From Kitasatospora gansuensis (GTDB lineage: Bacteria; Actinomycetota; Actinomycetes; Streptomycetales; Streptomycetaceae): a DNA stretch of 64,000 nucleotides. The position numbers and the translations under genes were made by a program. The notes beneath the pieces are model-generated. The model had not been told where the DNA came from. It worked only from the letters and a program-made list of their open reading frames with translations, and searched no databases. Location: positions 4,464,001-4,528,000 of the forward strand of contig NZ_JACHJR010000001.1 in assembly GCF_014203705.1 (NCBI RefSeq). Direction: 5' to 3'. Of this stretch, positions 5,072 through 25,891 are shown piece by piece; position 1 is the stretch's first letter, and each line of letters opens with the position of its first letter.

Positions 5072-5866
5072 TCAGGAGGCGGCGGGCAGGGCGGCCGCCA
5101 CCTGGCCCCAGACCGGGTCGAGGGCGAGGGCGGACAGCTGCGCCCCGGTCAGCAGCGGCGGGTTCGGGTAGGGCGTCTTCCGGTCGGACCCCGGGCCCGG
5201 GATGTTGCCGGCACTGATCAGCACCAGGGTCCCGTCGGGTCGTAGCAGGGTGGCCTGCCAGTCCTGTTCGCCACCTGCGGCTCGGGGGGGCAGGTAGAGC
5301 GTCAGGAAGGCACCGTCGGGCTGCGTGGTGACGGTGCATCCCGGGATGTCGCACGGGGCGGGACGTACCGTCCCGTCCGCTGACGGGCGCGTGCGGCCGA
5401 CCTCGATCCTGACGGTGCCCGTGCCGGTGCCGTCCGACGCGGTGTAGGCGGCCGTCAACTGCTTGAAGGGGAACCCCGAAGTACGGTCGAGCTGCCAGGG
5501 GTTGCTCAGCTGCAGGTTGGTGGGCAGCTTCGAGCGGAGCAGTTCCAGGAGCTGGGCCGTACTCGCCGGCACCGGAGGTGTGGCGGTGGTCGCCACAACC
5601 GACGGCGCGGCCGACGGCGTGGCCGGTGCGCTCCGGGCGGCCGAGGGCGGGGGTGGCTGGACCGTGGTGCCGGGGACGAGGGCGAGGGTCGCCGCGCAGA
5701 CCAGGGCGAGGCCGCCCGCTCCGGCGGCGGTGCCGGTGAGGGTCCGCAGGCGTCGGGCGCGTCGGCCGCGGCGCAGCAGCTGCGCCAACGGTACGGGCCC
5801 GGTGGGCACCTGACGGTCCGTCAGGGCGTGCAGGGCGTGCGACATCCGTCCGTCGTCCTCGGTCAC
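5072..5866 (-). CDS. Membrane-anchored partner of the upstream ECF sigma factor
   Basis: 264 residues: a cytoplasmic N-terminus of about 45 residues rich in Arg, one membrane segment (LTGTAAGAGGLALVCAATLA), a Pro/Ala/Thr linker, then an extracytoplasmic domain of about 170 residues with a CDIPGC motif. No zinc-binding HxxxCxxC anti-sigma motif is present. The GTG start at 5866 overlaps the sigma factor stop by four bases (GTGA) and has AGGAG eight bases upstream, so the two are translationally coupled. The arrangement matches the sigma/membrane-protein pairs of the SigE family, so an anti-sigma or signal-sensing role is likely but not shown. Confidence 0.75.
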   Translation of the reverse strand: MTEDDGRMSHALHALTDRQVPTGPVPLAQLLRRGRRARRLRTLTGTAAGAGGLALVCAATLALVPGTTVQPPPPSAARSAPATPSAAPSVVATTATPPVPASTAQLLELLRSKLPTNLQLSNPWQLDRTSGFPFKQLTAAYTASDGTGTGTVRIEVGRTRPSADGTVRPAPCDIPGCTVTTQPDGAFLTLYLPPRAAGGEQDWQATLLRPDGTLVLISAGNIPGPGSDRKTPYPNPPLLTGAQLSALALDPVWGQVAAALPAAS

Positions 5867-6372
5867 GGCGTGGTCTCCTGGTTCGCTAGCAGGGTGGTGC
5901 GCAGCCGGGCCATCGCCCGGGCGTTCTGGCTCTTCACGGTGCCGACCGAGCAGCCCAGGGCGGCGGCGGTGGCCTTCTCCGACAGGTCCTCGAAGTGACG
6001 CAGGACGACCACGGCGCGCTGGCGTTCGGGCAGTGCGCGCAGGGCGAGCTGGAGTTCGTCCAGCTCGTCGATCCGGCCGCCGAGCGGGTCCACGGGCCGG
6101 GCGGCGCTCTCGGGCAGGTCGGCGGTGAGCAGTTCCCGCCGCCGCCGGCGCCACCAGCTGACGTGGTTGTTGGCCAGCATCCGCCGCAGGTAGGCGTGCG
6201 GATCGTCGGTGGCTGCCCGGCGCCAGCGGACGTAGAGCTTGACCAGGCAGTCCTGGAGCAGCTCTTCGGCGCGGTGCCGGTCGCCTGTCAGCAGTGTCGC
6301 GGTGCGCAGGTGTCGGTGCCAGGCGGCCTCGACGAAGTCCGCGTACGCGGCGTCCTCGGTTTCTCGACTCAC
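5863..6372 (-). CDS. SigE-family ECF RNA polymerase sigma factor
   Basis: 169 residues. Region 2 is seen in LTGDRHRAEELLQDCLVKLYVRW and the following DDPHAYLRRML; region 4 in LPERQRAVVVLRHFEDLSEKATAAALGCSVGTVKSQNARA, a helix-turn-helix. It lacks the sigma 3 region, as ECF factors do, and has the length of the SigE-fam group. The start is taken at GTG 6372 just before SRETEDAAY; there is no strong ribosome site, so it could be a few codons off. It is translationally coupled to the membrane protein downstream and divergent from the sugar-binding protein gene. Confidence 0.88.
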   Translation of the reverse strand: MSRETEDAAYADFVEAAWHRHLRTATLLTGDRHRAEELLQDCLVKLYVRWRRAATDDPHAYLRRMLANNHVSWWRRRRRELLTADLPESAARPVDPLGGRIDELDELQLALRALPERQRAVVVLRHFEDLSEKATAAALGCSVGTVKSQNARAMARLRTTLLANQETTP

Positions 6373-6440
6373 GAGGGACAGACGCGCGAGCGGTGGTGAA
6401 AGGTTGTCGGGCTCACCTACGGCAGAATGCAGTCGTCTTT

Positions 6441-6478
6441 TTGCGAAATCCTGTCGACATCTTGTGGTCATCTGTCGA
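6441..6478 (+). promoter_or_regulatory. Candidate LacI-family operator before the sugar ABC operon
   Basis: TTGCGAAATC-CTGTCGACAT-CTTG occupies 6441-6464 and a second CTGTCGA lies at 6472-6478. The segment shares CTGTCGA-M-AT-Y-TTG and the leading TTGCG with the region upstream of the second glucanase (minus strand, 20118-20142). Shared sequence before two distant genes of one apparent pathway suggests the LacI-type regulator at 16098 binds here. The inner TGTCGACA is an 8-base palindrome. Confidence 0.45.
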
Positions 6479-6565
6479 GCAGTGGTTAAGTGACGGAGCC
6501 GCCGGGAGAAGCACTCAGCACTGCGGCACCCAACCCACCCATGCCCGCAGAAGGGTTCCTCCGTC

Positions 6566-7963
6566 ATGAGCAGAACTGGGCTCGTCCGTAGATCCGTCGT
6601 TGTCGCCGTGGCCGCCGGGATGAGCATGTCCCTTGCCGCCTGCGGCAGTTCGGGTGGTACGGGCGGAGGTGACGGGGCAGCGAAGGGCAGCGGGTCGGCG
6701 ACGCTGGACCCGGCGGCGAAGGTGACCGTCAGCGTGGACTGCCAGCCGCCGGTGACCAAGGCGGCGGAGCGCAAGCAGTGGGACCAGGACGTCGCGGCGT
6801 TCGGCAAGCTGTACCCGAACGTGACGATCAAGAGCAAGGACGCCTCGCCCTGCGAGGAGGCGGCGCCGTTCACCGCCCAGCTCAAGGGCAAGACGCAGAC
6901 CGACGTCTTCTACACCTACTTCACCGACCTCAACCAGGTGCTGGACGCGGACGGTGCCGAGGACATCAGCGCGTACGTCAACGAGACCACCGTCCCGGCG
7001 CTGAAGGACATCGACCCGTCGGTACTGGCCACCCTCAAGGACGGCGGCAAGCTCTACGGCCTGCCGACCTCGAACTACAAGATGGGCCTGCTGTACAACC
7101 GCAAGCTGTTCAAGCAGGCGGGCCTCGACCCGGAGAAGCCGCCGGCCACCTGGGCGGAGATCCGGGAGTCGGCGAAGAAGATCGCGGCGCTCGGCAACGG
7201 GGTGAACGGGTACGGCGAGTACAGCGCGACCAACCAGGGCGGCTGGCACTACACGGCCGAACTGTACGGCCTGGGCGGCAAGATGGTGAGCGACGACGGC
7301 AAGAAGGCCGCGTTCAACACGGCCGAGGGCAAGCAGGTCCTGCAGAACCTGTACGACATGCGCTGGACCGACAACACCATGGGCGCCGCGCAGAGCCTCA
7401 AGTGGCCCGACCTGATGACCCAGATGGCGGCCGACAAGCTCGGCATGTACGTCGGCGCGCCGGACGACATCACGTACATGGTGCAGACGCTCAAGGGCGA
7501 CTACGAGGCGTACGGCATGGGGCCGATGCCCGGGGCCAAGGCGGCGCTGCTCGGCGGCAACGACTACATGTTCAAGAAGGGGTCCAGCCCGGACCAGATC
7601 AAGGCGGGCATCGCCTGGATCAACTTCAAGTACCTGACCCTCGGCAAGGGCCAGTTCGACTACGCGCGGACCAAGACCGACGGGCTGCCGGTCGGCCTGC
7701 CGCAGCCGTTCTTCTTCACCGGCGCGAGCCTGGCAGCGGACAACAAGGCGAAGGCAGCCAGCGCCACCGTGCCGGTGCAGAACTACGCGCCGTACCTGGC
7801 CGTCGCGGTGCCCGGCAAGACCGAGCCGGCCAACGCGCAGCAGATCTACAAGGTGCTGGACAACCCGGTCTCGGCGGTGCTGACGGACAGGAACGCCGAC
7901 GTCGCCAAGCTGCTCGCCGACGCGGAGACCCAGGTCAACCAGGTGCTGGCCAGCCTCCAGTAG
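6566..7963 (+). CDS. Extracellular sugar-binding lipoprotein of an ABC transporter
   Basis: 465 residues. Signal peptide with lipobox LAAC, the acylated Cys being residue 26, then a Gly/Ser/Thr linker and a family 1 type solute-binding fold (VTVSVDCQPP..., DVFYTYFTDLNQVLDADGAEDIS, YGLPTSNYKMGLLYNRKLFKQAG). It would catch an oligosaccharide outside the membrane and hand it to the two permeases that follow. The neighbours (alpha-glucosidase and two alpha-1,3-glucanases) suggest nigero-oligosaccharides as the ligand; this is inference. No ATPase gene is present, as usual for streptomycete CUT1 importers, which share the MsiK ATPase encoded elsewhere. Confidence 0.92.
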   Translation: MSRTGLVRRSVVVAVAAGMSMSLAACGSSGGTGGGDGAAKGSGSATLDPAAKVTVSVDCQPPVTKAAERKQWDQDVAAFGKLYPNVTIKSKDASPCEEAAPFTAQLKGKTQTDVFYTYFTDLNQVLDADGAEDISAYVNETTVPALKDIDPSVLATLKDGGKLYGLPTSNYKMGLLYNRKLFKQAGLDPEKPPATWAEIRESAKKIAALGNGVNGYGEYSATNQGGWHYTAELYGLGGKMVSDDGKKAAFNTAEGKQVLQNLYDMRWTDNTMGAAQSLKWPDLMTQMAADKLGMYVGAPDDITYMVQTLKGDYEAYGMGPMPGAKAALLGGNDYMFKKGSSPDQIKAGIAWINFKYLTLGKGQFDYARTKTDGLPVGLPQPFFFTGASLAADNKAKAASATVPVQNYAPYLAVAVPGKTEPANAQQIYKVLDNPVSAVLTDRNADVAKLLADAETQVNQVLASLQ

Positions 7964-7971
7964 CGGACCCC

Positions 7972-7997
7972 GGGGGCCGGCCGCCGGGCCGGCCCCC
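7972..7997 (+). terminator. GC hairpin after the binding-protein gene (partial terminator or mRNA stabiliser)
   Basis: GGGGGCCGGCC pairs perfectly with GGCCGGCCCCC around a four-base loop, nine bases after the binding-protein stop and 40 before the next gene. In such operons a hairpin here commonly lets the binding protein be made in excess of the permeases. There is no U-run. Confidence 0.6.
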
Positions 7998-8036
7998 GCC
8001 GGGGGAGTACCGACGATCCAGCGGGAGAACGAAGCG

Positions 8037-8960
8037 ATGGCAGCGATCAGTGTCGCCGGGAAGGCGGCCAGACCCACCACCCACGAAGGAAGGCTGTGGC
8101 GGAAGGTCCGTCAGAACCTCACCGCGCACGGCTTCCTGTTCGGCGCCCTGCTCTGCTTCGGCTTCTTCACCTGGTACCCGATGGTCCGTGAAGTGGTGAT
8201 GAGCTTCCAGAAGACCAAGCGGGGGAAGACCAGTTGGGTCGGGCTGGACAACATCGACCAGCTGCTCCAGGACCCGGCGTTCTGGCAGGCCTGGCGGAAC
8301 ACCCTGCTGTTCACGCTGCTGGCGCTGGTGCTCGGCTTCGCGGTGCCGTTCTTCGTCGCCGTGCTGCTGAACGAGCTCCGGCACGCCAAGTCGTACCTGC
8401 GGATCCTGGTGTACCTGCCGGTGATGATGCCGCCGGTCGCCTCGGTGCTGCTCTTCAAGTACTTCTACGACCCGGACTTCGGGCTGTTCAACAGCATCCT
8501 GCGCGCTCTGCACCTGCCCACCTCGGCCTGGCTCAACTCGCCGGACACCGCGATGCTCTCGGTGGTGATCGCGTCCACCTGGATGAACATGGGCGGCGCC
8601 ACGCTGATCTACCTGGCGGCCCTGCAGGGCATCCCCGGTGAGCTGTACGAGGCGGCCGAGCTGGACGGGGCCGGCCTGTGGCGCCGGGTCTGGCACGTCA
8701 CCATCCCGCAGACCCGGCTGATCCTCTCGCTGCTGTTGCTGCTCCAAGTGGTCGCCACCATGCAGGTGTTCGTCGAACCCTTCCTGCTGACCGGCGGCAA
8801 CGGGCCGCAGGGGTCCACCACCACGGTGGTCTACCTCGTCTACCAGTACGCCTTCAACTTCAACAACTACGGCGCCGCCTCGGCGCTCGGCCTGATCATG
8901 CTCGTCGTGCTGGCCGGATTCTCCGCCCTGTACGTGCGCCTGTCCCGGAAGGCTGACTAG
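8037..8960 (+). CDS. Sugar ABC transporter permease, MalF/UgpA type
   Basis: 307 residues with six predicted membrane helices after a basic N-terminus. The cytoplasmic EAA loop that contacts the ATPase reads YEAAELDGAGLWRRVWHVTIPQ (split here: EAAELDGAG then TIPQ). Start ATG at 8037 has GGGAGAA upstream. It pairs with the next gene to form the membrane channel of a CUT1 importer; three bases separate the two genes. Confidence 0.93.
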   Translation: MAAISVAGKAARPTTHEGRLWRKVRQNLTAHGFLFGALLCFGFFTWYPMVREVVMSFQKTKRGKTSWVGLDNIDQLLQDPAFWQAWRNTLLFTLLALVLGFAVPFFVAVLLNELRHAKSYLRILVYLPVMMPPVASVLLFKYFYDPDFGLFNSILRALHLPTSAWLNSPDTAMLSVVIASTWMNMGGATLIYLAALQGIPGELYEAAELDGAGLWRRVWHVTIPQTRLILSLLLLLQVVATMQVFVEPFLLTGGNGPQGSTTTVVYLVYQYAFNFNNYGAASALGLIMLVVLAGFSALYVRLSRKAD

Positions 8961-8963
8961 ACC

Positions 8964-9848
8964 ATGGACGAGCCGCTGACCCGGACGCTGATCTCGCAGA
9001 CCCAACTCGACCGTCCGCGCGGCAGGTTGCTGTACCGGACCGTGCTGGTGCTGACCGTGGCCGGCTTCACCGTGGTCTTCCTCGGGCCGCTGTACTGGCT
9101 GGTGACCGGTGGGCTGAAGTCCACCGCCGAGGTGATCCAGAACCCGCCGACGTTGTTCCCGGCCGAGCTGCACCCCGACACCTACGCCACCGCCTGGCGC
9201 CAACTCGGCATGGGGCGGCTGCTGTTCAACACGCTGTACTACGCCTTCGGGGCGCTCGCCCTCCAGCTGTTGTTCGACGTGGCGGCGGCGTACGCGCTGT
9301 CCAAGCTGCGGCCGGTGCTGGGGAACCTGATCCTCGGCATGATGCTGGCGACCCTGATGATCCCGGCGGCGGTGCTGATCGTGCCGCAGTACCTGACCGT
9401 GCTCGATCTGCCGCTGCTGCACGTCAACCTGGTCAACACGCCGTGGGCGATCTGGCTGCCGACGGTGGCGAACGCCTTCAACATCTTCCTGCTGAAGCGG
9501 TTCTTCGACTCCATCCCGGAGGACCTGATGGCGGCGGCCGCGATCGACGGGGCCTCCCCGTTCCGGGCGCTGTGCTCGATCGTGCTGCCGATGTCGCGGC
9601 CGATCCTCGGGGTGGTGTCGATCTTCGCGGTGGTCAACGTCTGGAAGGACTTCCTCTGGCCGATGCTGGTCCAGCCGGATCCGGCCAACCAGACGCTCAA
9701 CATCGGCATCAAGTCGCTCTCGATGGGCGTGCCGCAGAACGTGATCATCGCCGCGCTGGCGATCGCCTCGGTGCCGACCGTGGTCTTCTTCCTGATCTTC
9801 CAACGCAACATCATGTCCGGGCTCACCTCCGGCGGACTGAAGGGCTGA
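8964..9848 (+). CDS. Sugar ABC transporter permease, MalG/UgpE type
   Basis: 294 residues, six membrane helices, EAA-loop variant AAAIDGASPFRAL followed by IVLP. The ATG at 8964 follows the previous stop by three bases with little ribosome site of its own, so translational coupling is likely. It is the second half of the channel. The intracellular GH13 gene follows after 73 bases, consistent with one transcript. Confidence 0.93.
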   Translation: MDEPLTRTLISQTQLDRPRGRLLYRTVLVLTVAGFTVVFLGPLYWLVTGGLKSTAEVIQNPPTLFPAELHPDTYATAWRQLGMGRLLFNTLYYAFGALALQLLFDVAAAYALSKLRPVLGNLILGMMLATLMIPAAVLIVPQYLTVLDLPLLHVNLVNTPWAIWLPTVANAFNIFLLKRFFDSIPEDLMAAAAIDGASPFRALCSIVLPMSRPILGVVSIFAVVNVWKDFLWPMLVQPDPANQTLNIGIKSLSMGVPQNVIIAALAIASVPTVVFFLIFQRNIMSGLTSGGLKG

Positions 9849-9921
9849 GCCCGACTGAAGGGCTGAGACCGCAGGGCCGACCGGAGCCGAGCACGGGCGC
9901 CGACCCGAAAGGACCCCCACC

Positions 9922-11547
9922 GTGGGACAGCAATCCCGGCTCCCCTCCGAGCACCCGGACTGGTGGCGCGACGCGGCGATCTACCAGGTGTACCCGCGCA
10001 GCTTCGCCGACGGCGACGGTGACGGCACCGGAGACCTGGCCGGGGTCCGCGCCCGACTGCCCTATCTGGCCGAACTCGGCATCGACGCGGTCTGGTTCAA
10101 CCCCTGGTACCCCTCGCCGATGGCCGACGGCGGCTACGACGTGGCCGACTACCGGGGCGTCGACCCGCTGTTCGGCACCCTGGACGAGGCCGAGAAGCTG
10201 ATCGCCGAGGCGCTCGGCCTCGGCATCCGTACCGTGGTGGACATCGTCCCCAACCACGTGTCGGACCAACATCCGTGGTTCCGGCGGGCGTTGGCGGCGG
10301 CGCCGGGCAGTCCGGAGCGCGAGCTGTTCCACTTCAGGCCCGGCCGGGGGGAGAGCGGCGAGCTGCCGCCGAACGACTGGGTGTCGGAGTTCGGCGGCTG
10401 CCCGTGGACCAGGCTGCCGGACGGCGAGTGGTACCTGCACCTGTTCGCCACCCAGCAGCCCGACCTCAACTGGGCGCACCCGCTGGTGCGTTCGGAGCAC
10501 GAGGAGATCCTCCGGTTCTGGTTCGACCGGGGCGCGGCGGGGGTGCGGATCGACTCGGCCGCGCTGCTGGCCAAGGACCCGGCGCTGCCGGACTTCGTCA
10601 AGGGCCGCGACCCGCACCCGTTCACCGACCGGGAGGAGCTGCACGGCATCTACCGCTCCTGGCGGGCGATCGCGGACGAGTACCCGGGCGAGCGGATCCT
10701 GGTCGGCGAGGTCTGGCTGCCGGACGCCGAACGGTTCGCCCGCTACCTGCGGCCGGACGAGCTGCACACCGCGTTCAACTTCGACTTCCTGGCCCGCCCC
10801 TGGGAGGCCCGCGCCCTGCGCGAGTCGATCGACGGCACGCTCGCCCTGCACGCCCCGGTCGGCGCCCCGGCCACCTGGGTGCTGTGCAACCACGACGTGA
10901 CCCGGACGGTGACCAGGTACGGCCGCCGGGACACCCGCTTCGACTTCGCCAGCAAGACCTTCGGCACCCCCACCGACCCCGGGCTCGGCCGCCGCCGGGC
11001 CCGCGCGGCGGCCCTGCTCTCACTGGCCCTGCCCGGTGCGGTCTACCTGTACCAGGGCGAGGAGCTCGGCCTGCCCGAGGTCGAGGACCTGCCGCTGGAC
11101 CGGCTGCAGGACCCGATGCACCTGCGCTCCGGCGGCACCGACCCCGGCCGGGACGGCTGCCGGGTGCCGCTCCCCTGGTCGGGCGACCGACCCCCGTACG
11201 GGTTCAGCCAGGCTCCGGCCGAGCCCTGGCTCCCGCAGCCGGCCGACTGGGCCGACCTCACGGTCGAGGCCCAGTCGGCCCGGGCTGACTCGATGCTCAC
11301 CCTCTACCGCACCGCGCTCGGGCTGCGCCGGGCCGAAGTGGCGCTGCGCGGCGACAAGTTCGAGTGGCTGCGCAGCCCGTCGGAGGTGCTCGCGTTCCGG
11401 CGCGGGACCGACTTCCGGTGCGTGGTCAACTTCGGGCCCGAGCCCGTCCTGCTGCCCCCGGGGCAGCCGGTCCTGCTGGCCAGCGGGCCGCTCACCGAAG
11501 GCGGGCTGCTGCCCGCCGACACCGCCGTCTGGCTGCGCAGCCACTGA
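9922..11547 (+). CDS. Cytoplasmic GH13 alpha-glucosidase / oligoglucosidase
   Basis: 541 residues, no signal peptide. All four GH13 motifs are present: DIVPNHVS (region I), GVRIDSAAL with nucleophile D211 (II), VGEVW with acid/base E263 (III) and CNHDV with H324/D325 (IV). The QVYPRSFADGDGDGTGDL start is typical of oligo-1,6-glucosidase / alpha-glucosidase enzymes of the GH13_23/30-like groups. GTG start with AAAGGA eight bases upstream. It would split the imported alpha-linked oligosaccharides to glucose; whether it prefers alpha-1,3 links cannot be read from sequence. Confidence 0.92.
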   Translation: MGQQSRLPSEHPDWWRDAAIYQVYPRSFADGDGDGTGDLAGVRARLPYLAELGIDAVWFNPWYPSPMADGGYDVADYRGVDPLFGTLDEAEKLIAEALGLGIRTVVDIVPNHVSDQHPWFRRALAAAPGSPERELFHFRPGRGESGELPPNDWVSEFGGCPWTRLPDGEWYLHLFATQQPDLNWAHPLVRSEHEEILRFWFDRGAAGVRIDSAALLAKDPALPDFVKGRDPHPFTDREELHGIYRSWRAIADEYPGERILVGEVWLPDAERFARYLRPDELHTAFNFDFLARPWEARALRESIDGTLALHAPVGAPATWVLCNHDVTRTVTRYGRRDTRFDFASKTFGTPTDPGLGRRRARAAALLSLALPGAVYLYQGEELGLPEVEDLPLDRLQDPMHLRSGGTDPGRDGCRVPLPWSGDRPPYGFSQAPAEPWLPQPADWADLTVEAQSARADSMLTLYRTALGLRRAEVALRGDKFEWLRSPSEVLAFRRGTDFRCVVNFGPEPVLLPPGQPVLLASGPLTEGGLLPADTAVWLRSH

Positions 11548-11653
11548 GGGGACCGCTGATGGCCCGGTCGCCACCCGCCCGGCAAGGTTCCCCCACTCCT
11601 CACCCCCACTCCTCACCCCCACCCATCGTTCGGACGACGAGACAGAGGAAACC

Positions 11654-14600
11654 GTGAGAACCCGAGCTCCGATCCCCCGGCTGGTGGCCACCGCGGCCAC
11701 CATCAGCCTGCTCGCCCTGGCGGGCCCGATGCTGCCCACCACCGCCTCGGCGGCCGGTGGCCCCAACCTGGCGGCCGGCAAGGCCGTCGCGGCCAGCAGC
11801 TCCACCGGCGGCCAGGCCGTCGGCAACATCAACGACGGCAACCAGTCCACCTACTGGGAGAGCAGCAACGGCAGCCTCCCGCAGTGGGTCCAGGTCGACC
11901 TGGGCACCGCCGCCAGCGTGGACGAGGTGGTGCTCAAGCTGCCCGCCGCCTGGGGCAGCCGCACCGAGACCCTGGCCGTCCAGGGCAGCGCGGACGGCAC
12001 CAGTTTCAGCACCCTGACCAACTCGGCGGGCTACAGCTTCGATCCGGGTGCCGCGAACACCGTGAAGATCGGCTTCCCGGCCGCCACCACCCGGTTCGTC
12101 CGGCTGGCGATCAGCGCCAACACCGGCTGGCCCGCCGCCCAGATCTCCGAGCTCGAGGTGCACGGCGCGACCGGCACCAGCGCCAACCTGGCCCAGGGCC
12201 GCAACCTCACCGCGAGCAGCTACAGCCAGACCTACACCGCGAACAACGCCAACGACGGCTCCCAGTCGAGCTACTGGGAGAGCGCCAACAACGCGCTGCC
12301 GCAGTGGATCCAGCTCGACCTGGGCGCCTCGGTCGCGGTGAACAAGCTGGTGCTCAAGCTCCCGGCGGGCTGGGAGAAGCGCACCCAGACGCTCGCGGTC
12401 CAGGGCAGCTCCAACGGCACCGACTTCACCGACCTGGCCACCTCCACCGGCTACGTCTTCGATCCGGCCACCGGCAACGCCGTGACCGTCGACTTCGGCA
12501 CCGCGACCACCCGGTACATCCGGCTGAACGTCACCGCCAACACGGCCTGGCCGGCCGCCCAGCTGGCCGAGCTGGAGGCGTACGGGCCGACCACCGGGGA
12601 CACCCAGGCGCCGTCCGCGCCCGCCAACCTGGCATACGGTCAGCCGAGTTCGGGTCAGATCAAGCTGACCTGGGACGCCGCCACCGACAACACGGGTGTC
12701 ACCGGCTACGACATCTTCGCCAACGGCGAGCTGCTCACCAGCGTCGGCGGCAACGTGCTGGCCTACACCGACACCCGGCCCGACAGTGCCACCGTGTCGT
12801 ACTTCGTCCGGGCCAAGGACGCGGCGGGCAACCAGTCCGGGAACAGCAACACCGTCACCCGTACCGGCGCGACCGGGGACACCCAGGCGCCGTCCGTGCC
12901 CGCCAACCTGGCGTACGGTCAGCCGAGTTCGGGTCAGATCAAGCTGACCTGGAACGCCGCCACCGACAACGTGGGTGTCACCGGCTACGACGTGTACGCC
13001 AACGGGGTGCTGCGGACCAGTGTCGGCGGCAGTGTGCTGACGTACACCGACAGCCAGCCGGACAGCGCCACCGTCTCGTACTACGTCAAGGCAAAGGACG
13101 CGGCGGGCAACCAGTCGGCGAGCAGCAACACCGTGCTGCGCAGCGGCAGCACCGGCGGCACCAACCTGGCGGCGGGCAAGGCGATCACCGCCTCCTCCTC
13201 GGTCTTCACCTTCGTCGCGGCCAACGCCAACGACAACGACACCGCCACCTACTGGGAGGCCAACGGGCAGCCCGGCACGCTGACGGTGCAGCTCGGTTCG
13301 AACGCCGCGGTGGACTCCGTGGTGGTCAAGCTCAACCCGGCCGCGGCCTGGGGCGCGCGGACCCAGACCATCGAGGTGCTCGGCCGTGACCAGGGCGCGA
13401 GTGGGGTCTCCAGCCTGGTGGCCGCGAAGAGCTACTCGTTCGACCCGGCCTCCGGCAACACGGTGGCCATCCCGGTCGGTGCCACCGCGGCCGACGTCCA
13501 GCTGCGGATCACCGCCAACTCCGGTGCGGGCGGCGGCCAGGTGGCCGAGTTCCAGGTGATCGGCACCCCGGCGCCGAACCCGGACCTCACCGTCACCGGC
13601 ACCACCGCCACCCCGGCCAACCCGGTGGAGACCGACGCCGTCACGCTGGCCGCCACCGTCAAGAACGTCGGCACGCTGCCCTCGGCCGCCACCGCCGTGG
13701 ACCTGTTCCTCGGGTCGACCAAGGTCGGCACCGCGCAGGTCGGCGCGCTGGCCGCCGGTGCCACCGGCACCGTCTCGGTCAACGCCGGGGCGCAGAACGC
13801 CGGCAGCTACCAGGTGAGCGCCAAGGTCGACCCGGCCAACACCGTGGTCGAGCGGGACGAGACCAACAACAGCTACACCGCCCCGGCCGCCCTGGTGGTC
13901 AGTCAGGTCGCCAGCTCGGACCTGGTGGCGGCCCCGGTCAGCTGGTCGCCCGGCAACCCGGCCACTGGCAACGCCGTCACCTTCTCGGTGGCACTGAAGA
14001 ACCAGGGCACGGTGGCCTCGGCCGCGGGTGCGCACGGCATCACGCTCACCGTGGCGGACCAGAGCGGTGCGGTGGTCAAGACACTGACCGGCTCCTACAC
14101 CGGCGCGATCGCGGCCGGTGCCACCACCGCCCCGGTCGGCCTGGGCAGTTGGACGGCGGGCAACGGCAAGTACACCGTGCAGACGGTGATCGCCAACGAC
14201 GCCAACGAACTGCCGGTCAAGCAGGCCAACAACACCAGCAGCCAGTCGCTGTTCGTCGGCCGCGGCGCCAACATGCCGTACGACACGTACGAGGCCGAGG
14301 ACGGCGTGCTGGCCGTCGGCGCCTCGCTGGTCGGCCCGAACCGGACCGTCGGCGACCTGGCCGGCGAGGCCAGCGGCCGTCGTGCGGTGACGCTCAACTC
14401 CACCGGTGCCTCGGTCGAGTTCACCACCAAGGCGCCGACCAACACCCTGGTCACCCGGTTCTCCATCCCGGACGCGGCGGGCGGCGACGGGATCAACTCG
14501 ACGCTGAGCGTGTACGTCAACGGCAGTTTCCTGAAGACCATCGACCTGACCTCCAAGTACGCCTGGCTGTACGGGAGTGAGACCGGTCCGGGCAACTCGC

Positions 14601-15940
14601 CCGGCGCGGGCGGCCCGCGGCACATCTACGACGAGGCGAACGTGCTGCTCGGCACCACCGTCCCGGCGGGCAGCAAGATCAAGCTGCAGAAGGACGCGGG
14701 CAACACCTCGCAGTACGCGATCGACTTCGTCAGCCTGGAGCAGGCCACCGCGACCCCGAACCCGGACCCGGCGCACTACACCGTCCCGGCCGGCTTCACC
14801 CACCAGGACGTGCAGAACGCCCTGGACAAGGTCCGGATGGACACCACCGGCACGCTGGTCGGCGTCTACCTGCCGACCGGTGACTACCAGACCGCCGGCA
14901 AGTTCCAGGTCTACGGCAAGGCCGTCAAGGTGATCGGTGCGGGCCCCTGGTTCACCCGGTTCCACGCCCCGGACACCCAGTCCAACACCGACGTCGGCTT
15001 CCGCTCCGAGGCCAGCGCCAACGGCTCGACCTTCGCGGGCTTCGCCTACTTCGGCAACTACACCTCGCGGATCGACGGCCCCGGCAAGGTCTTCGACTTC
15101 TCCAACGTGGCCAACACGGTGATCGACAACATCTGGGTCGAGCACATGGTCTGCCTGTACTGGGGCGCCAACACCGATTCGATGGTGATCAAGAACTCCC
15201 GGATCCGGGACACCTTCGCCGACGGCATCAACATGACCAACGGCAGCACGGACAACCTGATCAGCAACAACGAGGCCCGGGCCACCGGGGACGACTCCTT
15301 CGCGCTGTTCTCCGCGATCGACGCGGGCGGGGCGGACGAGAAGAACAACGTCTTCGAGAACCTGACCTCGATCCTCACCTGGCGGGCGGCCGGTGTGGCG
15401 GTGTACGGCGGGTACGCCAACACCTTCCGCAACATCCACATCGCCGACACCCTGGTCTACTCGGGCATCACCATCAGCTCACTGGACTTCGGGTACCCGA
15501 TGAACGGCTTCGGGACCGACCCGACCAACCTGCAGAACATCTCCATCGTCCGGGCGGGTGGCCACTTCTGGGGCTCGCAGACCTTCCCCGGCATCTGGGT
15601 CTTCTCGGCCTCGAAGGTGTTCCAGGGCATCCGGGTGAGCGACGTGGACATCGTCGACCCGACCTACCACGGCATCATGTTCCAGACGAACTACGTGGGC
15701 GGTCAGCCGCAGTTCCCGGTCAAGGACACCGTGTTCACCAACGTCTCGATCAGCGGGGCGCAGAAGAGCGGTGACGCGTACGACGCCAAGTCGGGCTTCG
15801 GGATCTGGGTCAACGAGGCGGCCGAGGCCGGTCAGGGCCCGGCGGTCGGCAGCGCGGTCTTCAACAACCTGCGGCTGAGCGGGAACTTCCAGAACATCCG
15901 GAACACCACCTCCACCTTCACCCTGACCGTCAACCCGTAA
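11654..15940 (+). CDS. Secreted multidomain alpha-1,3-glucanase, GH87 type
   Basis: 1428 residues. Order: signal peptide (cleavage near ASA-AGG, 33), two F5/8C discoidin domains (about 38-173, 176-313), two FnIII domains (315-406, 408-500), a third discoidin-like domain (501-640), two CARDB domains (641-750, 754-870), a carbohydrate-binding-like domain (YEAEDG, 875-1033) and a C-terminal beta-helix (1039-1428). In the helix FADGIN and ATGDD give Asp1190, 1213 and 1214; this D, +23, +24 spacing is the one I recall for the catalytic aspartates of GH87 alpha-1,3-glucanases. The GTG at 11654 has AGAGGAA close upstream. Probably the last gene of the uptake operon, ended by the hairpin at 15964. 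Nigeranase (mycodextranase) activity is an alternative. Confidence 0.85.
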   Translation: MRTRAPIPRLVATAATISLLALAGPMLPTTASAAGGPNLAAGKAVAASSSTGGQAVGNINDGNQSTYWESSNGSLPQWVQVDLGTAASVDEVVLKLPAAWGSRTETLAVQGSADGTSFSTLTNSAGYSFDPGAANTVKIGFPAATTRFVRLAISANTGWPAAQISELEVHGATGTSANLAQGRNLTASSYSQTYTANNANDGSQSSYWESANNALPQWIQLDLGASVAVNKLVLKLPAGWEKRTQTLAVQGSSNGTDFTDLATSTGYVFDPATGNAVTVDFGTATTRYIRLNVTANTAWPAAQLAELEAYGPTTGDTQAPSAPANLAYGQPSSGQIKLTWDAATDNTGVTGYDIFANGELLTSVGGNVLAYTDTRPDSATVSYFVRAKDAAGNQSGNSNTVTRTGATGDTQAPSVPANLAYGQPSSGQIKLTWNAATDNVGVTGYDVYANGVLRTSVGGSVLTYTDSQPDSATVSYYVKAKDAAGNQSASSNTVLRSGSTGGTNLAAGKAITASSSVFTFVAANANDNDTATYWEANGQPGTLTVQLGSNAAVDSVVVKLNPAAAWGARTQTIEVLGRDQGASGVSSLVAAKSYSFDPASGNTVAIPVGATAADVQLRITANSGAGGGQVAEFQVIGTPAPNPDLTVTGTTATPANPVETDAVTLAATVKNVGTLPSAATAVDLFLGSTKVGTAQVGALAAGATGTVSVNAGAQNAGSYQVSAKVDPANTVVERDETNNSYTAPAALVVSQVASSDLVAAPVSWSPGNPATGNAVTFSVALKNQGTVASAAGAHGITLTVADQSGAVVKTLTGSYTGAIAAGATTAPVGLGSWTAGNGKYTVQTVIANDANELPVKQANNTSSQSLFVGRGANMPYDTYEAEDGVLAVGASLVGPNRTVGDLAGEASGRRAVTLNSTGASVEFTTKAPTNTLVTRFSIPDAAGGDGINSTLSVYVNGSFLKTIDLTSKYAWLYGSETGPGNSPGAGGPRHIYDEANVLLGTTVPAGSKIKLQKDAGNTSQYAIDFVSLEQATATPNPDPAHYTVPAGFTHQDVQNALDKVRMDTTGTLVGVYLPTGDYQTAGKFQVYGKAVKVIGAGPWFTRFHAPDTQSNTDVGFRSEASANGSTFAGFAYFGNYTSRIDGPGKVFDFSNVANTVIDNIWVEHMVCLYWGANTDSMVIKNSRIRDTFADGINMTNGSTDNLISNNEARATGDDSFALFSAIDAGGADEKNNVFENLTSILTWRAAGVAVYGGYANTFRNIHIADTLVYSGITISSLDFGYPMNGFGTDPTNLQNISIVRAGGHFWGSQTFPGIWVFSASKVFQGIRVSDVDIVDPTYHGIMFQTNYVGGQPQFPVKDTVFTNVSISGAQKSGDAYDAKSGFGIWVNEAAEAGQGPAVGSAVFNNLRLSGNFQNIRNTTSTFTLTVNP

Positions 15941-15963
15941 CCCCGTAACACCCACCGAGAGCG

Positions 15964-15996
15964 GTGCCGCCGGGAGTCCTGACCTCCCGGCGGCAC
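15964..15996 (+). terminator. Strong terminator hairpin after the glucanase
   Basis: A perfect 13-base stem (GTGCCGCCGGGAG with CTCCCGGCGGCAC) and seven-base loop, followed by TTT, 24 bases after the stop codon. It ends the transporter/glucanase transcript before the regulator gene. Confidence 0.85.
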
Positions 15997-16050
15997 TTTC
16001 GGCTGCCCGGGAAAGGACCGTGATGTCCGGAAAGAGCATGTCGCCCACCG

Positions 16051-16091
16051 CGCAAGAAAGCGCAAAAACCTTGCGTCCGAAGACGTACACT
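16051..16091 (+). promoter_or_regulatory. Promoter and candidate self-operator of the LacI-type gene
   Basis: CGCAAG (16051-16056) and CTTGCG (16070-16075) form an inverted repeat just upstream of TACACT (16086-16091), a good -10. TACACT ends six bases before the ATG at 16098, so the transcript may be leaderless. A repressor bound to the repeat would cover the promoter, suggesting self-control. Confidence 0.5.
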
Positions 16092-16097
16092 CGCGGC

Positions 16098-17111
16098 ATG
16101 ACACGACGACTTGCCCAGGTGGCGCAGAAGGTCGGGGTCAGCGAGGCCACGGTCAGCCGGGTGCTGAACGAGAAGCCCGGCGTCTCCGAGGCGACCAGGG
16201 CGGCGGTGCTGACGGCGCTGGACGTGCTCGGCTACGAGCGGCCCACCCAACTCCGCGGTGAGCGGGCCCGGTTGGTCGGCATGGTGATGCCGGAGCTGCA
16301 GAACCCGATCTTCCCGGCCTTCGCCGAGGTGGTCGGCGGCGCGCTGGCCGGCCAGGGGTTCACCCCGGTGCTCTGCACCCAGACCGCGGGCGGCGTCTCC
16401 GAGGCCGACTACGTGGACCTGCTGCTCTCCCAGCAGGTCTCCGGGGTGGTCTTCTTCGGCGGTCTCTACGCCCAGGCGGACGCGGCCCACGAGCACTACG
16501 AGCGGCTGGCCGAGCGCAGCCTGCCCACCGTGCTGCTGAACGCGGCCATCGACGGCCTGGACTTCGCCCGGGTCTCCTGCGACGACGCGGTGGCGGTGGA
16601 GCAGTCCATCGGCCACCTGCGGCAGTTGGGGCACCGGAAGATCGGCCTGGTGCTCGGCCCGAGCGACCACGTGCCGTCCCAGCGCAAGCTGGCGGCGGCC
16701 CGGGTGGCGGCCGCCAAGGCCGGCCTGGAGCTGCCGGACCAGCACGTGGAGCGGGCGCTGTTCACCCTGGAGGGCGGCCAGGCGGCCACCACCAGGCTGC
16801 TCCGGCAGGAGGTGACCGGCATCATCTGCGCGAGCGACCCGCTGGCGCTGGGGGCGGTCCGGGCGGTCCGCCGGGCCGGGCTCTCGGTGCCGGACGACGT
16901 GTCGGTGATCGGGTACGACGACTCGTCCTTCATGAACTGCACCGACCCGCCGCTGACCACCGTGCGGCAGCCGATCGAGGCGATGGGCCGGGCGGCGGTG
17001 GACCTGCTGGCCGGGGAGATCGGCGGCGCCAAGATCACCCACGACGAGCTGCTGTTCGAGCCCGAGCTGGTGGTGCGCGGCTCGACCGCGCCGCCGCGCT
17101 CGCGCGGCTGA
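16098..17111 (+). CDS. LacI-family transcriptional regulator of the glucan locus
   Basis: 337 residues, the standard LacI/GalR length when started at the ATG at 16098. The helix-turn-helix is LAQVAQKVGVSEATVSRVLN, then a hinge and a periplasmic-binding-like sensor domain (LVGMVMPELQNPIFPAFAEVVGG... to VIGYDDSSFMNCTDPPLTTVRQP). It sits between the two glucanase genes and near the importer, so an alpha-glucan oligosaccharide is the likely inducer. It converges on the second glucanase and shares a terminator with it. The open frame upstream of 16098 overlaps the promoter and is probably not translated. Confidence 0.92.
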   Translation: MTRRLAQVAQKVGVSEATVSRVLNEKPGVSEATRAAVLTALDVLGYERPTQLRGERARLVGMVMPELQNPIFPAFAEVVGGALAGQGFTPVLCTQTAGGVSEADYVDLLLSQQVSGVVFFGGLYAQADAAHEHYERLAERSLPTVLLNAAIDGLDFARVSCDDAVAVEQSIGHLRQLGHRKIGLVLGPSDHVPSQRKLAAARVAAAKAGLELPDQHVERALFTLEGGQAATTRLLRQEVTGIICASDPLALGAVRAVRRAGLSVPDDVSVIGYDDSSFMNCTDPPLTTVRQPIEAMGRAAVDLLAGEIGGAKITHDELLFEPELVVRGSTAPPRSRG

Positions 17112-17122
17112 CCGCACGTCGG

Positions 17123-17156
17123 AAAGCCCTGACACCCGAGGGGGTGTCAGGGCTTT
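17123..17156. terminator. Bidirectional terminator between lacI-type gene and second glucanase
   Basis: A 15-base stem (AAAGCCCTGACACCC with GGGTGTCAGGGCTTT) around a four-base loop sits between two convergent genes. The flanking A and T runs give a U-run on both strands, so it can end transcription both ways. Confidence 0.88.
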
Positions 17157-17169
17157 CGCGCTCGGTGGG

Positions 17170-20025
17170 TCAGGAGGCGTACGCCTGGAGGTCGGAGAGT
17201 TGGGCGGCGGGCCAGCCGGTGTTGCCGGTGAAGGTCAGCCGCAGGTGGCGGGCGGCGGCGCCGGGGAAGCTGACCGTGACGGTGTTGCCGGTGGCCGGGT
17301 CGAAGCCGTAGCCCGCCGAAGCCTTCACGGTGGTCCAGCTGCTGCCGTCGGTGCTGGTGAGCACCGAGAGCGTCTCGGTCCGCGCGCCCCACCCGGCCGG
17401 CAGTCGGAGCACCAGGCGGCCCACGGTGGACTGGCTGCCGAGGTCGGCGCTCAGCGACTGCGGGAAGGCGTTGTTGGCGCTCTCCCAGTAGCTGTTCGGG
17501 TCACCGTCGTTGGCCCGGGACGGGACGTAGACGTCCACGCTGCTGGTCGCGGTGAGGGTCCGGCCCGCGAGCAGGTTCGGGTTGGCGGGCGGGGTGCTCG
17601 GGGGAGTGGTGGTGGGCGGGGTGGTCGGGGTGCCGCCGGTGAGTACGGTCAGCTCGGAGAGCTGGGCGGCGGGCCAGCCGGTGTTGCCGGTGACCGTGAC
17701 GCGGATCCAACGGGCGCTGGTGGAAGGGAAGTTGACGGTGGCGGTGTTGCCGGAGGCCGGGTCGAGCAGGACGCCCCGCGAGGAGGCCAGCTCGGTGAAG
17801 GTGGTGCCGTCGGTGGAGCCCGTGACGCTCAGGGTCTCGGTCCTGGCCTCCCAGCCGGCCGGCAGCCTGAGCTGGACGCCGTTCACGTTGGCGGCGGTGC
17901 AGCGGTCGACCGTGAGCGACTGCGGGAAGGCGTTGTTGGCGCTCTCCCAGTAGCTGGCCGCGTTGCCGTCGATCGCGTTGGCCGCGCCGTAGTTCTGGTT
18001 GCTGCTGGTCGCGGTCGCGCTCGGCGCGCAGACCGGCGGCGTGGAGGTCGAGGGGGACGGACTGGGCGACGGGGACGGGGAGTCGGAGGGTGAAGGGGAA
18101 GGCGAGGGCGAGGGCGGAGTGCCGTTGGACGGCCGCCCGCCGTAGGTGAACTTCGGGTCGGGCCAGACACCCGAGCAGGTCGAGCCCGACCAGCCGGAAT
18201 TGCCGCCGCCGTCGGTGATCACGAAGCCGGTGCCGACGCAGTTGTGGGTCGGGGTGGCGGACTGCGCGATGTTCTTCGCCGTCACGTTGGTGAACTTCAT
18301 GCTCGCGTTGGCCTGCGCCTGGATCGCGTAGGTGCCCGCGCCGTCGATGTTCACGTTGGTGAAGCTGATCCCGCCGGCCGCGCCCTCGATGGTCTGGATC
18401 GCCTCGTACGAGCTGTCCAGGATGTCGCTGTCGGTGATGTTGATGGCCGCGCCGCTGATCGCCTCGTTGAGGCCGCTGAACCAGACCGCGCCGACCCCGA
18501 AGTTCCAGTTGTAGTCGCTGTTTCCGGTCCGGATCAGGGTGTTCCGGGCGGCGGTGATGGTGCCCGCGACGGCGGTGCCGTAGCCCGAACTGACGCCCGG
18601 GTAGCGGTTGGCGATGTGCAGGCCGCCGCCGTTGCTGATGGTGTCCGCCATCACGTTGTCCGAGATGGTGAAGTCCTTGCCGCCGTACGTGACGACGTTG
18701 TTGGCCAGGATCGGCAGCACGACCGTGTTGTGGGTGAAGCTGTCGCCCACGTTCGGCACCCGCTCCGGCCAGGAGGCCAGGCCGTCGTCACCGGTGTTGC
18801 GGACGAAGGTGTTGGTGACGGACGAGTTGGTGACGCCGGTGTGGAAGTTCACGCCGTCGGCGGTCTGGTCCAGGATCCGGCTGTTGCGGATGGTGAAGCG
18901 GTCCATCGGGCCGTCCATCCAGGCGGCCACCTTGGTGTGCTGGATCCACAGGTTGTCGACCACCGAGTTGCTCATCGCGCCGCCGATGGCGTTCACCTGG
19001 TCGTCGTCGATCCGCTCCTGGATGTCCCCGATGATGGCGAAGTCTTTGAGCGTGACGTTCCGGCTCGGGCCGTTCGCCTCATGCGGTCGCACCGCGCCGC
19101 CGTAGCCGCCGCCGGGTACGTACTTGCCGTAGATGCCGGCCGCCCGGTTCCGGTTCACCGGGTCGCGCCCGCCGAGCACGCTGTACCAGGGCCCGGCCCC
19201 GGCCAGCGTGACGCCGTCCACCACCACGTGGTCGTAGAGGGTGAAGTTCCCCTGCGGGATGAAGACCGTCTTCCCCTGCGCCTGACCGGCGTTGACCGCC
19301 GCCTGGAACTTCGCGGTCGAGTCGGTGGCCCCGCTCGGGTCGGCGCCGAAGTCCGTCACCACGTCAAGTGCCCCGGCGGGCTTGGCTATCGGGGCGGCGA
19401 CCTGCTCGAAGTCGGCCAGGTCGACGGTGAAGCTGGGCGACTGCGCGGTGGAGGAGACCTGAAGCCGGACCTTCGCCCCGGCGGGCAGGGTGGAGCCGAA
19501 CATGGTCCGGGTCTCGTCGTAGAAGTGGTGCGGATTGGTGTCGCCGGGGTTGTTGTTGAACGGGTAACCCCCGTAGTACCAGCCGTACTTGGAGGTGACC
19601 GGCAGGTCCTTCAGCTTCGACCCGTTGACCAGCAGGTCGATCGAGGCGGTCCGCCCCTTGCCGTCGGCGGTGTCCGGCAGGCTGTACCGGAAGCTCATCG
19701 CGTTGGCGGGCGCGGTGAGGGTGAACTCCACGTACTGGCCGGTGGAGTTGAGCGTGACGGCCTGTCGACCGGAGGCCTCCGAGGGGAGGGTGCCGTAGCG
19801 CCGCTCGGGGCCGATCACGGTGCCGTTGGTGGCCGCGTACTCGGCCTCCTGCTCCTTGAACGGCACGGTGGCACCCCGGCCGGTGACGTCCAGCGGGGAC
19901 AGGGTCGGTACGGCGGCGGCGTGTGCGGACTGGGCGGTCAGGCCGAGCAGGGCGGCGGAGCTCAGTGCGGCGGCCGTCAGCACGGCGAGCGGGGCGCGCA
20001 GGCGGCGGAGCGGGGGTGGCTGCAT
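17170..20025 (-). CDS. Second secreted alpha-1,3-glucanase, GH87 type, with two C-terminal discoidin domains
   Basis: 951 residues. Signal peptide (cleavage after AQSAHA, 36), a carbohydrate-binding-like domain (EQEAEYAATNG, about 52-205), then a catalytic beta-helix (about 213-640). TADGVN and NTGDD give Asp390, 413 and 414, the same D, +23, +24 spacing as in the glucanase at 11654 and as recalled for GH87. A Pro/Ser repeat linker, a discoidin domain, a Pro/Thr linker and a second discoidin domain follow. The domain order is reversed compared with the other glucanase, so the pair probably differ in how they grip the polymer. ATG at 20025 has AAGGAAG upstream; the open frame extends 39 codons further but would start inside the promoter. 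Confidence 0.85.
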   Translation of the reverse strand: MQPPPLRRLRAPLAVLTAAALSSAALLGLTAQSAHAAAVPTLSPLDVTGRGATVPFKEQEAEYAATNGTVIGPERRYGTLPSEASGRQAVTLNSTGQYVEFTLTAPANAMSFRYSLPDTADGKGRTASIDLLVNGSKLKDLPVTSKYGWYYGGYPFNNNPGDTNPHHFYDETRTMFGSTLPAGAKVRLQVSSTAQSPSFTVDLADFEQVAAPIAKPAGALDVVTDFGADPSGATDSTAKFQAAVNAGQAQGKTVFIPQGNFTLYDHVVVDGVTLAGAGPWYSVLGGRDPVNRNRAAGIYGKYVPGGGYGGAVRPHEANGPSRNVTLKDFAIIGDIQERIDDDQVNAIGGAMSNSVVDNLWIQHTKVAAWMDGPMDRFTIRNSRILDQTADGVNFHTGVTNSSVTNTFVRNTGDDGLASWPERVPNVGDSFTHNTVVLPILANNVVTYGGKDFTISDNVMADTISNGGGLHIANRYPGVSSGYGTAVAGTITAARNTLIRTGNSDYNWNFGVGAVWFSGLNEAISGAAINITDSDILDSSYEAIQTIEGAAGGISFTNVNIDGAGTYAIQAQANASMKFTNVTAKNIAQSATPTHNCVGTGFVITDGGGNSGWSGSTCSGVWPDPKFTYGGRPSNGTPPSPSPSPSPSDSPSPSPSPSPSTSTPPVCAPSATATSSNQNYGAANAIDGNAASYWESANNAFPQSLTVDRCTAANVNGVQLRLPAGWEARTETLSVTGSTDGTTFTELASSRGVLLDPASGNTATVNFPSTSARWIRVTVTGNTGWPAAQLSELTVLTGGTPTTPPTTTPPSTPPANPNLLAGRTLTATSSVDVYVPSRANDGDPNSYWESANNAFPQSLSADLGSQSTVGRLVLRLPAGWGARTETLSVLTSTDGSSWTTVKASAGYGFDPATGNTVTVSFPGAAARHLRLTFTGNTGWPAAQLSDLQAYAS

Positions 20026-20117
20026 GGGGGGATGCACTTCCTTGCTGGTCGCGTGGGTGGAACGGCCGAGCGTTGGAGAGACTAGGCGCGACGGTGCATG
20101 AAGTCCATGTAAATGTG

Positions 20118-20142
20118 CAAAATTTCGACAGCTATCACGCAA
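20118..20142 (-). promoter_or_regulatory. Candidate LacI-family operator before the second glucanase
   Basis: Read on the minus strand: TTGCGTGATAG-CTGTCGAAAT-TTTG. Compared with 6441-6464 upstream of the sugar-binding protein, 12 of 14 bases match in the CTGTCGA-M-AT-Y-TTG part and TTGCG is also shared. The site lies about 95 bases before the start codon at 20025. Confidence 0.45.
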
Positions 20143-20157
20143 GTACGTCGGATCGGG

Positions 20158-23952: not shown

Positions 23953-24384
23953 GGGGGTCTCCCAGGGAAAAAGGGCAGCAAAAGGCGTGGGAGGGCGGCT
24001 GGCAGAGGATGGCCGACCGGCCTTGGCTGCGCCCTTGAAGTGGCACCTTAGCGCTCTCGGCCGAACGGATGAACGGGGGGTGGCGGCCGATCCGCGGCGC
24101 CGATCGGGGGGATCCCCGACGCTCCGTCAACTCACCTGAAAGGCCGCCAAGTTGACCTGGCGGTCGACAGGTTTCCGGGATGTGAATTCTTCGACGGCCG
24201 GAGTGCGACGGCGTACGCCATGCACAAAAACGGCGCCTTCGGAGCGCGAACGTCCGAACAGTCACTGATTCGGGTGAGCCCGGTGGCATTTGTCGATCAG
24301 CTGAGCCCGCCCGGCCGTCACCATGAACCACGCAACGCGATCAGTCCATCGTGCCCGCATCGTGCTCGCGGAGAGGCCCCCTCG
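23953..24384. other. Intergenic region between ATP-grasp and encapsulin genes
   Basis: 432 bases without a supported gene. It must hold both divergent promoters. GTCAAC (24126-24131), GTTGAC (24151-24156) and GTCGAC (24163-24168) are related half-sites in mixed orientation, forming the imperfect repeats GTCAAC...GTTGAC and GTTGACC-TGGC-GGTCGAC; they may be regulator sites. The encapsulin ribosome site GGAGAGG is at the right end. Open frames that cross this region are GC-frame artefacts. Confidence 0.5.
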
Positions 24385-25830: not shown

Positions 25831-25891
25831 GGCCGCGGTACCGAGCTGCGGGCGGTCCGCGCGCAGCCACTTCTTCTGGGGGAGGACGTAC

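Follow-up and report, generated by a model that had tools for sequence, protein, structure and literature searches.

An actinomycete gene cluster that probably serves alpha-1,3-glucan utilisation: two secreted GH87 glucanases beside an importer, a cytoplasmic glucosidase and a LacI-family regulator

Alpha-1,3-glucan is a major polymer of fungal walls and a part of dental mutan, and the import and final breakdown of its fragments by bacteria have been little described. Here we ask whether the genes packed together in the 64,000-nucleotide stretch of DNA analysed (the window; G000:C1:4464001-4528000 of an 8.3 Mb genome, with a G+C content of 65-78% in 2-kb steps) make up a complete locus for the use of this polymer, as an earlier note had claimed. 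We consider it very likely that they form an alpha-1,3-glucan utilisation locus. The components named in the note were all found by Pfam matches, as follows:

6566-20025, plus strand except GH87B: the locus, with all named parts
6566..7963, plus strand: solute-binding protein (SBP) of a CUT1 importer, a lipoprotein (PF01547, 1.6e-27; lipobox LAAC)
8037..8960, plus strand: CUT1 permease of MalF type (PF00528, 2.1e-18)
8964..9848, plus strand: CUT1 permease of MalG type (PF00528, 1.6e-13)
9922..11547, plus strand: cytoplasmic GH13 alpha-glucosidase (PF00128, 2.8e-94; N-terminus without a signal peptide by inspection)
11654..15940, plus strand: GH87A, secreted (CatAgl_D1 PF22815, 2.4e-77; CatAgl_D2 PF22816, 4.5e-109)
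16098..17111, plus strand: LacI-family repressor, MalR-like (helix-turn-helix PF00356, 2.6e-13; sugar-binding PF13377, 1.8e-38)
17170..20025, minus strand: GH87B, secreted (PF22815, 2.3e-49; PF22816, 7e-16)

The plus-strand order is thus SBP, permease, permease, GH13, GH87A and LacI, and GH87B converges on these genes from the minus strand. The spacing of the first five genes makes a single operon possible. GH87A starts with a signal peptide at a GTG (11654), and for LacI a start at 16098 is preferable, since the longer ORF would take in a predicted palindromic operator (16060-16076). The range first proposed ran to 20142 and does contain the locus, but that position is an upstream TTG, and the signal peptide of GH87B begins instead at the ATG at 20025. 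As to completeness, genes for secreted cutting, import, cytoplasmic hydrolysis and LacI control are all in place, while the ATPase gene is encoded elsewhere.

Other genes of the window were observed in passing. An ECF sigma factor ORF (5863-6891, minus strand) lies divergent from the SBP gene, within window positions 5072-6891, and the ORF adjoining it (5072-6154, minus strand), which has no Pfam match, may encode its membrane partner. A pyridoxal-dependent decarboxylase-like gene is found at 2817-4445 (minus strand), with neighbours carrying T5orf172/DUF4041 and HNH domains, and an SrpI-like encapsulin shell gene with a cyclic-nucleotide-binding domain at 24220-26944 (plus strand; PF19307, 5.9e-137; PF00027, 2.4e-12). 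A polyprenyl synthetase gene (PF00348, 3.2e-61) follows the latter, making an encapsulin-terpene pair possible.

The choice of polymer had been made to depend on the catalytic spacing of the two large secreted glucanases, and a placing of the catalytic domains outside GH87 had been set beforehand as one result that could refute it; in the search, neither domain falls outside the family. Both proteins match the Pfam CatAgl D1 and D2 profiles and, judged from sequence, are GH87 members, with solved GH87 alpha-1,3-glucanases as their best matches in the PDB: chain 6k0m, which we take to be Agl-FH1 of Paenibacillus, for GH87A (427 bits, 1.6e-126) and 7c7d for GH87B (371 bits, 1.9e-109). Residues D1190, D1213 and D1214 of GH87A align with three Asp of 6k0m, each of which is Ala in one mutant chain (6k0p, 6k0q, 6k0s), and GH87B carries ADGVN-(17)-TGDD (GDD at residues 413-414), the same ADGxN-(17)-TGDD arrangement as in GH87A; the spacing had been read correctly in both. 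According to PMC11475409, 7c7d comes from Streptomyces thermodiastaticus HF 3-3.

The two enzymes are built differently around this catalytic unit. GH87A has a signal peptide followed by two discoidin, two FN3-like and one further discoidin domain, a CARDB-type region (one repeat matched by the profile and another visible on inspection) and GH87 D1+D2; its FN3-like repeats fall under the Pfam cut-off and match PDB 1k85 at 2.6e-15. GH87B runs from a signal peptide through GH87 D1+D2 and a Ser/Pro linker to two discoidin domains. Accessory domains of this sort bind alpha-1,3-glucan in related enzymes, and the discoidin-type domains would probably anchor the present enzymes to the glucan. The genome carries a third GH87 gene away from the locus (L065, G000:C1:764069-765034).

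The families of the two enzymes point to alpha-1,3-glucan as the probable polymer. The chief rival substrate is a nigeran-type glucan of fungal walls with mixed alpha-1,3/1,4 linkages, in which case at least one GH87 enzyme would be a mycodextranase, the ligands would be nigerose and 4-alpha-nigerosyl-nigerose, and the GH13 enzyme would keep alpha-1,4 activity. Mycodextranases of GH87 cut mixed alpha-1,3/1,4-glucan, at alpha-1,4 linkages in nigeran, and yield nigerose and 4-alpha-nigerosyl-nigerose. Such an assignment would suit a family whose characterised enzymes are all mutanases or mycodextranases (PMC13421300), a Streptomyces mycodextranase already being known (PMC11475409), and a GH13 enzyme related to those of maltase type. 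Solved alpha-1,3-glucanases are nevertheless the nearest to both GH87A and GH87B in a comparison set that contained no mycodextranase sequence, and the GH13 enzyme lacks the V-A-H segment of six of the seven maltase-type paralogues. We judge the mixed glucan unlikely and continue with alpha-1,3-glucan.

The GH13 glucosidase, which had rightly been called cytoplasmic, has all its catalytic residues, namely the nucleophile D211 (followed by Ser), the acid/base E263 and the Asp of the NHD motif, D325, and its nearest PDB entries are the alpha-glucosidases 8yif (1.6e-158) and 8yie. In a tree of 121 rows, built by a quick method with a midpoint root, the seven maltase-type paralogues (two of them long rows) are together on the same side of a branch supported at 98% SH-aLRT. 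All 24 closest orthologues of the genus have Ser directly after the nucleophile, and all seven maltase-type paralogues have Val; 13 intermediate rows of the genus divide into seven with Ser and six with Val, and 77 GH13 proteins from the loci of the best 80 of 584 SBP relatives (see below) into 69 and eight. Since Val also occurs within such loci, Ser at this position is dispensable. The surrounding region II reads V-A-H in six of the seven maltase-type paralogues and S-A-A/G in the closest orthologues. Thus, on sequence grounds, the enzyme is a paralogue that has diverged from the maltase-type enzymes and has an altered segment in its active site. Region II is known to bear on specificity in GH13, as described for an insect subfamily (PMC13000629), and its change suggests an altered linkage preference, putatively for alpha-1,3 bonds. 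By reading of the match list, GH13 matches of at least 730 bits come from the very 30 of the 61 genus genomes that carry the SBP and GH87 (see below), and lower-scoring maltase-type homologues raise the total to 60 of 61. One GH13 gene of 65% identity (L081, G030:C1:944575-946200) was seen where the other cluster genes were not found beside it.

The CUT1 importer is represented by a family 1 SBP lipoprotein and two permeases, as had been proposed, and lacks an ATPase gene at the locus. A structure search with the predicted SBP model (mean pLDDT 79) gave an SBP of Thermotoga lettingae as the nearest chain (Z 35.7), followed by a binder of cyclic maltosyl-maltose (Z 32.7), and other alpha-glucoside binders, among them a cycloalternan binder (Z 30.9); chains that bind different sugars, or ligands that are not sugars (dinucleotides, glycerol phosphates), score close behind. 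Because near chains bind many different ligands, the fold fits an alpha-glucan and cannot name the ligand, for which nigero-oligosaccharides are our candidates. Genome-wide, one MsiK/UgpC-like ATPase exceeds the curated cut-off (470 bits; G000:C1:4462519-4463601, minus strand), and its gene lies 400 bases outside the window start, ~7 kb from the SBP gene. One MsiK is common to several importers in streptomycetes, and an MsiK-type ATPase presumably energises this importer as well. MsiK as a conserved neighbour was rejected: tblastn at E<=1e-80 over the 139 loci L041-L179 found a single match (46%, L140), so its nearness to the SBP gene here is probably chance.

The packing of cutting, import, hydrolysis and control genes into one place is not a matter of chance. 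Across 61 genomes of the genus, in each of which the best 27 SBP candidates were scored, 33 of the 37 SBP matches have a GH87 gene no more than 20 kb away, against ~1.3% expected per match. PF22816 occurs in 30 of these genomes and the SBP (E<=1e-60) also in 30, and the two sets are identical (30/30 present and 31/31 absent; Fisher 4e-18, ignoring kinship); all such co-occurrence counts are inflated by shared ancestry. Around GH87A-type genes, 24 stretches of ~20 kb (L041-L064) were compared, and the SBP, both permeases and GH13 were found in 23 and LacI in 22. The remaining stretch, in genome G005, has none of them, and an importer set lies beside a GH87B gene elsewhere (L066). The commonest order is LacI, GH87A, SBP, permeases and GH13, while in the window and in L049 GH87A follows GH13; the order thus varies among stretches and the content stays.

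A scan of 197 genomes of the class (best eight SBP candidates scored in each) found GH87 in 34, in 32 of them over the cut-off, and the SBP at the preset E<=1e-60 in 32, of which 25 have GH87 and seven do not. The SBP scores are bimodal, with at least 398 bits in 18 genomes and at most 230 in 14, and when split in this way, which was chosen after the scores were seen, GH87 is present in 18 of 18 genomes of the upper group (Fisher 2e-16) and in seven of 14 of the lower. Four of these seven lower-group genomes (G096, G211, G241 and G260) have an SBP of 35-36% identity within 6 kb of GH87. Since 16 of the 34 class genomes with GH87 lack an SBP scoring 398 bits or more, GH87 does not require this importer. 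That count would also be expected if the GH87 enzymes were mainly antifungal weapons, the importer served some other alpha-glucoside (e.g. maltodextrin) and the neighbourhood were incidental, an explanation to which the kinship of the importer, GH13 and LacI genes with a maltodextrin-type cluster lends itself. However, the same genome has a separate maltodextrin-type cluster (L087), the SBP and GH87 occur in identical sets of genus genomes, and the gene content is constant despite the varying order; we therefore regard this explanation as very improbable and retain a locus for alpha-1,3-glucan use.

Relatives in named genomes were collected with an alignment of 16 SBPs, and the best 80 of 584, with L122 and L172 from one genome, come from Streptomyces, Kitasatospora, Streptacidiphilus, Micromonospora, Actinoplanes, Streptosporangium, Amycolatopsis, Rhodococcus and others. 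A match to a GH87 catalytic profile built for this analysis lies within 10 kb in 63 of these 80 loci (ADGxN...GDD in 60 of the 63). PF22816 is found elsewhere in the genome for 14 of the 17 loci without a local GH87, several of which are on short contigs, and is absent for three, placing GH87 somewhere in the genome for 77 of the best 80. By tblastn with whole GH87 proteins 64 of the 80 loci match, but accessory domains can match alone, and the profile count of 63 excludes L134. Substitution by another glucanase was considered and rejected: Pfam searches covering 13 of the 17 loci (all except L112, L134, L152 and L166), with 19 large ORFs among them, returned no glycosidase, a weak result in that 10 of the 19 ORFs matched no family and may have been translated in the wrong frame. 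Two further observations concern the relatives themselves. Six loci (L083-L086, L168, L171) form a second cluster type, with an SBP of 44-46% identity and GH87 between the second permease and GH13. SBP relatives of 45-50% identity also occur on six large replicons filed as plasmids in Embleya, Streptantibioticus, Streptomyces and Nonomuraea (NZ_CP108785.1, NC_016113.1, NC_017585.1, NZ_CP023408.1, NZ_LT559118.1, NZ_CP109493.1).

The LacI regulator, also correctly named, has candidate sites at three promoters:

6440..6445, plus strand: TTTGCG, the sole half-site of the SBP promoter region, with flanking TTTTTGCGAAATC..GTCGACATCTTGTGG like several orthologues
16060..16076, no strand assigned: GCGCAAAAACCTTGCGT, a predicted operator for LacI in the leader of the repressor gene; most orthologues compared have a site like it at much the same place
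20116..20143, minus strand: upstream region of GH87B, with two half-sites, CTTGCG and TTTGCA

In 106 upstream regions (27.6 kb) of related and hence not independent sequences, TTGCGT occurs 79 times and CTTGCG 108 times on the two strands, where 3.4 and 12.6, respectively, would be expected from the loci. Pairs, defined as two YTTGCR within 35 bp, precede 31 of the 41 LacI genes of the clusters and 22 of 37 SBP genes, versus eight of 202 other upstream regions taken from simple ORF prediction. They are likewise found upstream of GH87B in two of five cases within the cluster and four of six away from it, of other GH87 genes in three of 16 and of GH13 in one of 44; there are none in 23 GH87A upstreams, in 37 of first-permease genes (an operon-internal control) or in the four LacI upstreams of maltodextrin-type loci. 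The promoters carry MalR-like half-sites, with CTTGCGT oftener than CTTGCAG: the commonest seven-mers of the cluster upstreams are CTTGCGT (57) and TTTGCGC (33), with only 17 of CTTGCAG. A single fixed palindrome was rejected as the operator, as spacing and orientation vary among the promoters of LacI, SBP and GH87B; a genome search for the strict form RCGCAARNNNYTTGCG gave five matches at four sites, one site being at the locus and read on both strands. The third GH87 gene (764 kb) has the palindrome TAGCAAG-AAC-CTTGCTA (TAGCAAG-N3-CTTGCTA) upstream. The repressor probably binds the YTTGCR half-sites and would be released by an inducer.

Given the gene content, families, catalytic residues, linkage and co-occurrence, and half-site enrichment observed, the locus may work as follows. 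Two secreted GH87 endo-glucanases of different branches, held on insoluble glucan by their discoidin-type domains, would release nigero-oligosaccharides, which the lipoprotein and permeases would import with energy from a shared MsiK-type ATPase and the cytoplasmic GH13 glucosidase would split to glucose; the MalR-like repressor, sitting on YTTGCR half-sites, would keep the genes off until an imported oligosaccharide frees it. The use of alpha-1,3-glucan originally proposed is thus supported by GH87 membership and by the conserved linkage of genes for cutting, import, hydrolysis and LacI control, with the exact polymer a matter of likelihood. We hold more tentatively, at a little short of evenly balanced, that a copied maltodextrin module of actinomycetes (LacI, CUT1 importer and GH13) was converted to serve alpha-1,3-glucan. 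The GH13 clade would then be a new nigero-oligosaccharide glucosidase with mostly Asp-Ser for Asp-Val in region II, the SBP a dedicated nigero-oligosaccharide receptor, and the repressor shifted from CTTGCAG towards CTTGCGT, in a class-wide regulon for feeding on fungal walls that reaches distant GH87 genes in trans. The transporter, glucosidase and repressor that track GH87 in actinomycetes are directly testable candidates, the gene set is a marker to predict actinomycetes feeding on fungal walls, and the enzymes are candidates for making or removing nigero-oligosaccharides.

The gene set appears not to have been studied previously as a unit. Searches of open PMC text, which mostly leaves subscription literature outside, yielded GH87 clusters of other phyla and neither a description of this actinomycete locus nor a paper combining GH87, LacI, ABC transporter and Streptomyces. 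Streptomyces isolates growing on mutan are described in PMC11475409, the main text of which has neither 'transporter' nor 'LacI'. The nigerose cluster of Lachnoclostridium phytofermentans (PMC9061262) is similar in having GH87 near ABC importer and LacI genes, with a proposed role in nigerose breakdown, but it relies on a GH65 nigerose phosphorylase and GH31_u1 as inner enzymes, in contrast to the maltase-related GH13 glucosidase here. The predicted GH87 PUL of Prevotella melaninogenica also combines a GH87 mutanase with uptake and regulation genes, but differs in its TonB/SusD-type uptake and its GH97 and GH99-type enzymes; to the knowledge of the authors of that 2026 paper, no GH87-containing PUL had been characterised (PMC13421300). 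The solved enzymes 6k0m and 7c7d are alike in their catalytic domains (three Asp compared for 6k0m), but are catalytic units solved alone, whereas the GH87 genes here are coupled to import genes. Closest to home are four maltodextrin-type clusters (L087, that of the same genome, L090, L091 and L093), which we take to be of the malR-malEFG-aglA type of streptomycetes. They resemble the locus in their CUT1, GH13 and LacI genes, with identities, where matched, of 26-28% for the SBP, 27-36% for the permeases, 56-57% for GH13 and 51% for LacI; GH87 is absent from all four stretches. Both types share a CTTGC core in their known or predicted operators, with CTTGCAG, the core of the MalR and AcrC operators (PMC5526262), in the maltodextrin-type clusters (CTTGCAG...CTGCAAG in three of the four loci examined) versus CTTGCGT and TTTGCGC as the commonest in the GH87-type clusters. 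Most likely, then, this is an actinomycete utilisation locus of the CUT1/LacI/glycosidase kind, here for alpha-1,3-glucan, whose gene set recurs in many actinomycetes.
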